This document shows, piece after piece, positions 3,458 to 35,590 of a DNA stretch of 64,000 nucleotides. The notes under the pieces are model-generated. The model had not been told where the DNA came from. It saw only the letters and a list, made by a program, of their open reading frames with translations, and did no database searches. Origin of the DNA: Candidatus Lambdaproteobacteria bacterium RIFOXYD2_FULL_56_26 (GTDB taxonomy: Bacteria; SAR324; XYD2-FULL-50-16); the NCBI GenBank assembly GCA_001783715.1, contig MFNF01000057.1, forward strand, positions 62,001 through 126,000. The letters run 5' to 3'. The translations under genes were made by a program, and so were the position numbers. Within the stretch, counting starts at the first letter, position 1. Every line of letters starts with the position of its first letter.

Positions 3458-4513
3458 TTAAATCACTTCAATCCCTACCGGGCCGGGCTGAAAATGACCC
3501 ACTTGGTCGGCCCAGGCCAAACCTGCGGCCTTGAGGGCGGTGACCAAGGTTGCCGCTTGGGCTTGGGGCAAGGCAAACAACAGTCCACCCGAGGTCTGGG
3601 GGTCAAAGAGCAATTCTGTTTGGGCCTCTGTCAGGCTCTTGTGCAGCTTAAGTTTGTGGTCGAGCAGTTTGCGGTTGTCTTTGTTGCTCCTAGTGGTGAC
3701 CCCTTTTTGGTACATTTCCAAAGCACCGGAAAAAAAAGGCAGACGGCGGTGCTCAAACACCAAGGTCAACCCCGTACCGGCGGCCATTTCCAAGCCGTGG
3801 CCCAGGATGCCAAAGCCGGTCACATCGGTGGCCCCGTGGATCTCAAAGCCCTGGGCCAGAACCTTGGCGGGGCCGTTGAGGGTGGTCAGGGCGGGGATCA
3901 CTTCTTCGAGCAGCCGGGCATACGAAAATTGGTCCCCCCTGGTGGCGTTGAGCAACACCCCCGAGCCCAGGGGCTTGGTCAGCACCAGTGCGTCCCCCTC
4001 CTGGGCGGTGCTGTTGCGCCAAATCTTGGCCGGGTGGACTTGGCCCGTGACCGAGAGGCCAAATTTGGGTTCTTCGTCTTCCACCGAATGGCCGCCCACC
4101 ACTACGGCACCGGCCTCCTTGACCTTGTCGTGGGCCCCTCGCAAGATCTCCCGCAGTACCCCCAGGTCCAGCTTTTTGACCGGAAACATCACCAGATTCA
4201 TCGCCGTCAAAGGTTCGCCGCCCATCGCCCAGATGTCCGAGAGGCTGTTGGCGGCGGCGATTTGGCCAAAGACGTAAGGGTCGTCCACCGCCGGGGTGAT
4301 GAAGTCCACGGTGTTGACCAAGGCAAGGTCCTCAGTCAAAAGATAGACCCCGGCATCGTCGGAAGTCTCGGTCCCGACCAGAAGCCTGGGGTGATCGTTT
4401 AAGCCCAACCCAGCGAGCGCCGCCGACAGACCTGTCGGCCCCAACTTAGCGGCTCAACCGCAAGTTTTGGCGAGGTGGGTCAGTCGTTTTTTTCGTTTGG
4501 GCCAGGAAAACAT
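3458..4513 (-). CDS. selD: selenide, water dikinase, a selenoprotein read through an in-frame UGA
   Basis: SelD makes selenophosphate from selenide and ATP, the selenium donor for Sec-tRNA. Taken without recoding, the frame could start only at a TTG (4444) and would lack the catalytic N-terminus. Reading through the TGA at 4454-4456 restores it: ATG at 4511-4513, then LTHLAKTCG-U-AAKLGP, with U at residue 20 and the essential Lys at 23, as in Sec-containing SelD proteins. A ribosome site (AAGGAA) precedes this ATG by about 6 bases, and the full length of 351 residues fits the family. The rest carries the expected TSDDAG, NTVDF and GGHSVEDEEP segments of the AIR synthase-like ATP fold. Sec incorporation is inferred from conservation and the adjacent hairpin. 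Confidence 0.9.
4422..4439 (-). promoter_or_regulatory. candidate bacterial SECIS hairpin of selD
   Basis: Starting 15 bases after the UGA, the mRNA can form GCCGAC/GUCGGC, six perfect pairs, extendable by an A-U pair. The loop is AGGUCU (or GGUC) and begins 21-22 bases after the UGA. This meets the published bacterial SECIS rules: a short apical loop with a G in its first two bases, 16-37 bases from the UGA. The element lies inside the coding sequence, as expected for bacteria. The role is inferred. Confidence 0.7.
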
Positions 4514-4643
4514 CTTGTTCCTTTGGGGTGAAGTAACCTTGAGGTTTGGAGACTAACACAGCGCCGTAATGGGGGCAATCGACTTGGCGAACCTTTGGTT
4601 TTGGGGTAGGCTGAGAGAAGCTGCAATAAAAAGGAGAGGCAAT

Positions 4644-5585
4644 ATGTCGGTGGCACAAGACCTGGGGTTTGGGGTTTGGCGGATCGAGCTGTTGGACAAA
4701 AAAAGTCCCTACCCGGTCAGTGGATACTTGGTTTTGGACGAAGAAAAATGGGTGGTGGAAACCGGCCCTTCGGCGGCCCACGGCCAGATTGTGGCCGCTT
4801 TGGAAGAAGCGAAGGTTGGCCTAAATGAAATCACCGGGATCCTGGTTACCCATGTGCACCTGGACCACAGCGGCGGAGCGGGGTTGCTCGCCCAGGCCTG
4901 CCCCAACGCCAAGGTTTATGTCCACCCTCGGGGAGCCCGGCACCTAGTGGACCCAAGCAAACTGGAGTCCAGCGCCAGGGCGGTTTATGGGGAGCTGTTT
5001 GATTCCTTGTTTGCGCCGATCCTCCCGATCCCAAAATCCAAGGTCGTAGTGGCGGAGCCGGGCGGTAAAGTGAGGTTGGGCAAAGACCGGGAGCTGCATT
5101 TTTTTGATGCCCCCGGCCATTGTCTGCATCATCTGTTCGCCTGGGACCCCAAAAGCCGGGGGATTTTTTCCGGTGATGCCGCCGGGATGTTTTATGCCCA
5201 TGCCTGGGAACAGTACCATGCGGCCTTGTGCCTGCCTGCCTCCACCCCCACCCAGTTCGACCCCAAGGCCATGGCCCAGACCGCCCAGGAGATGTTGGAC
5301 CTGGACCCCAAACGGATCTATTACACCCATTTTGGGCATACCGAAGAGGCGGCGGAGATGTTAAAAGAGATGTTGTCTTGGTTGCCCCTGTACGGCGAGC
5401 GGGCCGTGGAGCTGTACAAGAAGGAACAAAGCGAGGCCAAGGTGGCCAACTTTATGTACCAGGAGATTTGGAAGGTCGCCCAAGCTCGGGGCATCAAAGA
5501 CGAATCCGCCTTGCCCGGCCTGCATTTTGACTGCAACCTCAACGCCCAAGGGGTCGCCGCTTACGTCAAGTTTTTGGAGCGGTAA
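4644..5585 (+). CDS. MBL-fold metallo-hydrolase
   Basis: A 313-residue metallo-beta-lactamase-fold protein. The metal-binding signature THVHLDHSGG lies near residue 70, with later ligand candidates in FDAPGHCLHH, FSGDAAG and YTHFGH, the order expected for a glyoxalase II-like hydrolase. The substrate cannot be read from sequence. The ATG at 4644 has a strong AAGGAGAGG four bases upstream; an in-frame start at 4569 has none and would add an odd Arg-rich leader. It is transcribed divergently from selD across about 130 bases. Confidence 0.85.
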   Translation: MSVAQDLGFGVWRIELLDKKSPYPVSGYLVLDEEKWVVETGPSAAHGQIVAALEEAKVGLNEITGILVTHVHLDHSGGAGLLAQACPNAKVYVHPRGARHLVDPSKLESSARAVYGELFDSLFAPILPIPKSKVVVAEPGGKVRLGKDRELHFFDAPGHCLHHLFAWDPKSRGIFSGDAAGMFYAHAWEQYHAALCLPASTPTQFDPKAMAQTAQEMLDLDPKRIYYTHFGHTEEAAEMLKEMLSWLPLYGERAVELYKKEQSEAKVANFMYQEIWKVAQARGIKDESALPGLHFDCNLNAQGVAAYVKFLER

Positions 5586-27568: not shown

Positions 27569-28598
27569 ACTTGCCCTGGCCGCAACGGGCCTCCTGTGCT
27601 TTTTTTCGGCCCCCGGCTTTGCCCAAGGGCAGGCGGGGAAACGTTTGACCAATGTGGAGGTCTTGGAGCTGACCGCCCAACCGCTGAGTGCCTCCGCCAG
27701 CTACATGGGCCACCTGGAGCCGACCCAGCGGGTGATGATCGGCAGCGAAGTGGCCGGGGCGCTGGAGGTGCTGGACCTCGAAGAGGGGCAAGCGGTGAAG
27801 CCGGGGCAGGTGATGGGCAAGATCGATACCTCCAGGCTTTCGCTCAACTACAAGCTGGCCCTTTCCAGCTATGATCTGGCCAAAGACGAATTTGACCGGG
27901 AGAAAAAGTTGTTTGCCAAGCAGCTTTCCAACCAAGCCAAGCTTTCCCAGTTCAAAAACAAGATGGAAATGGCCTTTTTCCAGATGCGCCTCGCCCAGGT
28001 GGACCTGGAAAAATCCCAGGTGACCGCTCCCTTTGCCGGGGTGGTTTCCAAAAAATTGGCCCATGCCGGGGAGTACCTCGCCAAGGGGGCACCGCTCTTA
28101 GAGCTGATCGACCTCAGCTCGGTCAAGGCCCGTATCCAAGTGCCGGAACGGGAGATTGCCTTTGTCTCTTTGGGCAAGTCGGTCTCGGTAACCTTGGACT
28201 CCTTCCCGGACCGGGAGTTTGTGGGCAAGGTCAGCGCCTTGTCGATGGAAGCGGACCAAAAAAGCCGCAGCTTCCGGGTTGAGGTGGTGGTGGAAAACGG
28301 CAAAGGGGAACTGCTTTCGGGCATGTTGGCCCGGGTCAGGATGGTCACCCAAAACCTGACCAACCAATTGATCCTGCCTCGAGACGCAATCTTGGAAGAC
28401 GAAAAGGGCTCTTATGTCTTTGTCCTCTCCGGGGATCAGGCGAGCAAGCGGCCGGTCACTTTGGGCCTGGGCCTGGGGGCGAATGTCCAGGTGACCAAGG
28501 GTCTCTCTTTTGGGGAAAAGGTGGTGGTGGTCGGCCAACAAATGGTGACCCACCAGGAACGAGTTTCGGTCGTAAAATCCAGCCAACAATCTCTTTGA
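27558..28598 (+). CDS. RND efflux periplasmic adaptor (membrane fusion protein)
   Basis: A 346-residue adaptor with a signal peptide (MDFKLALAATGLLCF to FAQG). The biotinyl-lipoyl halves are recognisable: RVMIGSEVAGALEVLDLEEG with GQAVKPGQVMGKID, and VTAPFAGVVSKKLAHAGEYL after a helical hairpin. A beta-barrel and membrane-proximal domain follow. It links the RND pump to the TolC-like channel. ATG 27558 gives the cleaner signal peptide and an 11-base overlap with the previous gene; ATG 27540 is also possible. No clear ribosome site is seen for either, so coupling is likely. Confidence 0.9.
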   Translation: MDFKLALAATGLLCFFSAPGFAQGQAGKRLTNVEVLELTAQPLSASASYMGHLEPTQRVMIGSEVAGALEVLDLEEGQAVKPGQVMGKIDTSRLSLNYKLALSSYDLAKDEFDREKKLFAKQLSNQAKLSQFKNKMEMAFFQMRLAQVDLEKSQVTAPFAGVVSKKLAHAGEYLAKGAPLLELIDLSSVKARIQVPEREIAFVSLGKSVSVTLDSFPDREFVGKVSALSMEADQKSRSFRVEVVVENGKGELLSGMLARVRMVTQNLTNQLILPRDAILEDEKGSYVFVLSGDQASKRPVTLGLGLGANVQVTKGLSFGEKVVVVGQQMVTHQERVSVVKSSQQSL

Positions 28599-35326: not shown

Positions 35327-35590
35327 ATGAGAAAAACTCTCTTGGTCCCCTCGGTCACGTTCCTTTTTGGGGTGGCCGATACCTATGGCCAAAGTCGGCT
35401 GCAGGCGGTGGCGGAATACAACCGCCAATTCGACCCCATGTTCGAGCTGTATTGGGCCGGAGGAATTGTCCTGGGCATTGCTGCTCTGGTGGTGGTTTAC
35501 CAACTGATCAAACGGGCCACCCGCAAAAAACAGGACTCCCAAAAGGACAACTTGGCCGCACCACGCAAAGATTTTAACGATTTCCTTTAA
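35327..35590 (+). CDS. small single-pass membrane protein of unknown function
   Basis: An 87-residue protein. The N-terminus may be a signal peptide or weak membrane segment (TLLVPSVTFLFGVADTYGQ). A clear membrane helix follows at about residues 43-61 (WAGGIVLGIAALVVVYQLI), then a basic and polar tail (KRATRKKQDSQKDN). No family is recognised. It ends 14 bases before the ABC-F gene and may be co-transcribed with it. Confidence 0.55.
   Translation: MRKTLLVPSVTFLFGVADTYGQSRLQAVAEYNRQFDPMFELYWAGGIVLGIAALVVVYQLIKRATRKKQDSQKDNLAAPRKDFNDFL

Follow-up and report, generated by a model that had tools for sequence, protein, structure and literature searches.

A selD gene of a SAR324-clade bacterium very probably encodes a selenocysteine-containing selenophosphate synthetase

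Introduction

The selD gene of a SAR324-clade bacterium contains an in-frame TGA, which raises the question of whether this codon ends the reading frame or is decoded as selenocysteine (Sec). We analyzed 64,000 nucleotides of contig MFNF01000057.1 (positions 62,001 to 126,000) from Candidatus Lambdaproteobacteria bacterium RIFOXYD2_FULL_56_26, hereafter the window, together with the rest of the genome and the genomes of relatives. Only one prokaryotic selenoprotein family is more widespread than Sec-containing SelD (Sec-SelD/SPS2) (PMC13188914). In an early survey every bacterial selenoproteome contained FdhA or SelD, and SelD as the sole selenoprotein, together with ybbB, is also on record (PMC1794560). 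A Global Ocean Sampling survey, which is based on environmental reads and does not name SAR324 in its text, placed SelW-like (CxxU), SelD and PrdB (UxxC) proteins among the most abundant selenoprotein families (PMC2398784). Two SAR324 single-cell genomes have been listed as 'orphan SelD' (PMC5029168).

Results

The TGA codon lies at the catalytic position of an intact selD

The gene encoding selenophosphate synthetase (selenide, water dikinase) occupies positions 3458-4513 on the minus strand of the window. When TGA is translated as Sec (U), the frame is open over 351 residues and then ends at a TAA. The TGA (4456-4454) is codon 20, in the context MFSWPKRKKRLTHLAKTCG-U-AAKLGP (TCG-U-AAK). A first-pass annotation, made from the sequence without database searches, had assigned this TGA to the SelD active site with the right coordinates, leaving out only the strand. 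The start is an ATG at 4513-4511, near the starts of relatives L019 and L020, and a putative ribosome binding site (AAGGAA, 4518-4523, minus strand), inferred from the sequence, is located 4 nt 5' of it, in agreement with the start and ribosome site proposed at first pass. A standard six-frame ORF list, the output of a Sec-unaware caller, contains only a 328-aa ORF (3458-4444, minus strand) that begins at TTG 4444 and is missing Sec20 and Lys23. This truncation had been anticipated as well.

The family identity of the product was clear. SelD residues 10-319 matched positions 1-310 of the 311-position TIGR00476 profile with 366 bits (E 1.3e-109), a full-length match that passes the curated cut-off of 125, and a domain search found both AIRS and AIRS_C. 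In an alignment to solved SelDs, the product aligned with the Aquifex-type SelD 2yye from residue 10 across the Cys/Sec site (E 6.5e-60). U20-A-A-K23 paired with C-A-A-K of 2yye and C-G-C-K of 3u0o, and the conserved Lys is three residues past the catalytic position encoded by TGA. The alignment of the N-terminus suggested at first pass therefore places the TGA opposite the Cys in the GCAAK and GCGCK of the solved proteins, and class relatives have a TGA there. Identity to full-length SelDs of the same class ranged from 43 to 73%. An overlapping 111-aa minus-strand ORF (4446-4781) had no match in the family search and was set aside. A divergently oriented gene of the metallo-beta-lactamase fold (Lactamase_B, ODP family; 4644-5585, plus strand) has its start some 130 bp away from that of selD.

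A covarying stem-loop follows the TGA throughout the class

A bacterial SECIS, identified by folding and covariation, is located at 4422-4439 on the minus strand. The hairpin, GCCGACA-GGTC-TGTCGGC, begins at the 15th base past the TGA and has a 7-bp stem, and its loop (GGUC in the RNA) lies 21 nt past the TGA. This is the perfect 6-7 bp hairpin with an early loop G that had been described 15 bases downstream. The published bSECIS model asks for an apical loop of 3-9 nt, an upper stem of 4-16 bp, a G in the first two loop positions, a distance of 16-37 nt from the UGA and a minimum free energy at or below -7.5 kcal/mol (PMC13188914). The selD hairpin falls within all of these limits (loop of 4 nt starting G-G, stem of 7 bp, spacing of 21 nt, and -12.3 kcal/mol for the isolated stem-loop). 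An equally good hairpin occurred in 7.4% of synonymous recodings of the selD segment and at 1.7% of the window's coding positions, and folding energy by itself was uninformative (z -0.6 for the 46-nt fold). The hairpin of a single gene is weak evidence, no rarer than a few per cent alone, and comparison with relatives therefore had to decide.

We used the SelD protein as the query of a six-frame search of 57 other genomes. It yielded 41 full-length SelDs, distributed over 40 genomes of the studied class (SAR324), and every one had exactly one in-frame TGA; at all 29 loci read as DNA the TGA was at the homologous codon. No Cys-form SelD was found in the class. Seven of its genomes had no match, and the remaining matches were fragments apart from one broken copy. 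The genome under study contains a single SelD copy and no second, Cys-form SelD.

Covariation was measured in 25 distinct SAR324-clade sequences aligned on the loop. These include L049-L051, from the named genome collection; L023, with the loop GGATTT instead of GGTC, was excluded from the counts and L034 lies outside the set. Stem pairing was retained in 87% of cells, with changes on both sides at all 8 pairs and the inner six paired in 92-100% of the sequences. Changes on both sides were found in 37 cells, compared with 11.4 in shuffles, and the covariation score was 0.606 (shuffles, 0.217 +/- 0.032; none of 500 as high). When the partners were slid by 1-3 columns, the score was at most 0.152. 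The covarying stem of the relatives encloses a loop starting GG. Taken together, an in-frame TGA at the catalytic codon of a selD that is intact in all other respects, conserved throughout the class along with covarying stems, lies well beyond chance. One of the loci, L049 (PAHQ01000061.1), is titled Verrucomicrobiales bacterium NAT181, while its SelD is nested among SAR324 SelDs; this probably reflects a wrong label, a mixed MAG or a gene transfer.

A SECIS covariance model built from selD sequences of the class found the selD site with E 4.3e-5 and the next best match in the genome with E 2, although it is not a sensitive detector, since it missed the SelW-like and PrdB-like elements described below, which have 5-nt loops. 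None of its genome matches at E 2-10 had a TGA within a convincing coding frame. No Rfam family matched anywhere in the window.

The distance between TGA and SECIS loop varies within the class

The loop begins, or is centred, at +21 in the genome under study and in four others of its family, and also in G034 (locus L030), which belongs to another family. The other class members read (among selD loci L018-L051) have the loop at +17, as do SelDs from Bacillota and further phyla; of the 33 distinct SAR324-clade rows in the protein tree, 27 show this position. This tree requires at least two register changes, on well-supported branches, which points to more than one 4-nt move of the SECIS core. 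On balance we lean slightly towards a core that shifted 4 nt relative to the protein at least two separate times in the class, keeping its pairing and a loop that starts with GG and is mostly GGUC. The move in G034 is likely independent of that in the studied clade, but this is not proven because G034 is on a rather long branch. If such shifts did occur, a SECIS could be re-created in a new register through few, often synonymous, changes.

The genome contains a complete selenium machinery

The assembly is a draft of 3.08 Mb in 68 contigs and is about 97% complete. The first-pass annotation had expected selA, selB and selC to be present, and all were found: selA at C1:376396-377643 (476 bits, cut-off 267.9), selB on contig C21 (279 bits against a cut-off of 242), whose product has the beta-barrel and a winged-helix domain of SelB, and the tRNA-Sec gene selC at C65:56272-56366 (61 bits, cut-off 47), with the anticodon TCA (UCA). 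Together with selD, these make the Sec-decoding trait complete in one genome. We also identified mnmH/selU (ybbB) at C65:34744-35628 (TIGR03167, 294.8 bits, cut-off 219.75); together with selD, this gene gives the genome the selenouridine trait as well. Across 52 genomes of the class, selD and selA were both present in 43, both absent in 5 and discordant in 4 (Fisher p 1.6e-4, not corrected for relatedness), and most of the genomes that lack one or both genes are incomplete. Neither SelD nor SelA had a match in G010, a small genome from the same order (1.5 Mb, 89% complete), in which the selenium trait may have been lost.

At least two further genes have in-frame TGA codons and SECIS elements

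Further hidden selenoproteins had been predicted at first pass, and targeted family searches revealed two more such genes, each carrying a SECIS with a GGUC loop. As the product of targeted searches and not of a complete-genome scan, these two are a lower bound on the rest of the selenoproteome. One (L094, P0003) encodes a SelW-like protein of 78 aa, MKMNLTIEYCGVU..., on the minus strand of contig C46, with its TGA at 58222-58220 in a CxxU (CGVU) motif. It matched TIGR02174 with 56 bits (cut-off 34), and its SECIS is GGCCGTT-GGTCT-AGCGGCT, with the loop at +21. The gene is directly 3' of a gene that resembles, by eye, a ClC-type chloride channel with CBS domains. The other (L095, P0002; C42:34948-35742, plus strand) encodes a PrdB/GrdB-like protein of 264 aa, with its TGA at 35452 in a UxxC (UGTC) motif. 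It scored 110 bits against the PrdB model (E 9e-32), below the equivalog cut-off of 300, and is therefore labelled 'PrdB-like' only; the family search gave no stop for this gene because the TGA is just outside the Pfam match. Its SECIS is ATCAGAC-GGTCG-GTCTGAT, with the loop at +17. GGUC thus begins the loops of all three SECIS elements found in the genome.

No in-frame TGA was found at or beside the match in four molybdopterin oxidoreductases, 11 AhpC-TSA members and one AhpD/CMD gene, and hence no Sec-FdhA or Sec-peroxiredoxin was seen among them. A window-wide codon-usage scan for other genes with in-frame TGA gave no further convincing candidate; the best one, at 28596, was the stop of one gene just 5' of the start of the next.

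Discussion

We observed directly the gene, its TGA codon, the conserved hairpin, the complete set of machinery genes and the other selenoprotein genes. On this sequence evidence we are nearly certain that the selD of this SAR324-clade bacterium encodes the selenoprotein form of selenophosphate synthetase, with Sec inserted at UGA20 by means of the downstream stem-loop and an activity that would supply SelA and MnmH/SelU. In the bacterial pathway, SelB carrying Sec-tRNA(Sec) binds the SECIS, and the product of SelD serves SelA and MnmH. By analogy with this pathway, we infer SelB binding, Sec insertion, catalysis and the flux to both products. At UGA20, SelB with Sec-tRNA(Sec) would bind the stem-loop just downstream, with its GGUC apical loop, and selenocysteine would be inserted in place of termination. 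Sec20 and Lys23 in the N-terminal segment would then handle selenide, and the enzyme would convert selenide and ATP into selenophosphate. One part of the selenophosphate would go to SelA, whose Sec-tRNA would be used for further SelD and for at least two more selenoproteins, and another part to MnmH/SelU for 2-selenouridine in tRNA. SelD, as a selenoprotein, would thus be required to make more of itself, a circularity typical of Sec-SelD.

We considered three ways in which the TGA could be something other than a Sec codon. The codon might truly be TGC or TGT, which are one base away, and SelD a Cys form; a draft assembly in 68 contigs could contain such an error. The first-pass annotation had named this as a possible refutation, but 40 other class genomes have the same single in-frame TGA, which rules out a sequencing error. 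The 41 full-length SelDs come from 40 separate assemblies and the TGA is accompanied by a covarying hairpin, while the genome itself contains the full Sec machinery, leaving an assembly error extremely improbable. Slightly less remote, yet still very improbable, is a pseudogene or a start 3' of the TGA, at the TTG (4444) that opens the 328-aa frame, so that SelD would lack the catalytic segment at its N-terminus. Residues 10-23 are conserved with the solved SelDs and the class relatives, and the shortened form would miss both the catalytic Cys/Sec and the Lys. Reassignment of TGA to a standard amino acid such as Trp has nothing in its favor beyond the in-frame TGA itself. It is refuted by ordinary stop usage, since of the 47 window genes that were modelled, 13 end in TGA. 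The UCA-anticodon tRNA that was found is tRNA-Sec, and Cys occupies the site in more distant homologues; we give this reading virtually no chance.

A fourth proposal is compatible with Sec insertion at UGA20 and adds a regulatory role to it. When selenium is low, the UGA would terminate translation, making selD a selenium-responsive switch on its own supply. Sec-SelD requires selenophosphate for its own synthesis, and the genome has a single SelD copy. However, every Sec-SelD implies such a loop with no extra element needed, and we regard a dedicated switch as very unlikely.

Reading selD as a Sec-encoding gene has practical consequences. In this lineage, a gene caller that ignores Sec would get selD and at least two more genes wrong, and the GGUC loop shared by the three SECIS elements is a simple lead to the remaining selenoproteome. 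The understanding of selenocysteine decoding is unchanged by the finding. Two points may be new in a small way: the 4-nt shift of the SECIS register, and the class-wide pairing of SelA with SelD, against the 'orphan SelD' listing.

Sec-SelD has long been described and SelW-like, SelD and PrdB proteins are common in the sea, so the present case belongs to a known kind. Compared with bacterial Sec-SelD/SPS2, the gene has the same family model, Sec position, in-frame UGA with SECIS and partner genes, and there is no difference of substance. The Escherichia coli fdhF gene, the type example for the bacterial SECIS and proven to encode a selenoprotein, shares the GGUC core, which lies at +18 in the fdhF segment that we checked and at +21 in selD. 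The fdhF stem carries a bulged U, whereas the selD stem is a perfect 7-bp helix without it. The 'orphan SelD' genomes (PMC5029168) are of the same lineage and share SelD. Unlike in that listing, SelD accompanies SelA throughout the class, and the genome studied here adds SelB, tRNA-Sec, SelU and other selenoproteins. The class-wide pattern shows that the selenocysteine trait is general among SAR324-clade bacteria, and it suggests that incompleteness of the single-cell genomes may lie behind the 'orphan SelD' calls. As in the selenoproteomes of the Global Ocean Sampling survey, all three kinds of protein, SelW-like, SelD and PrdB-like, are present in this genome.
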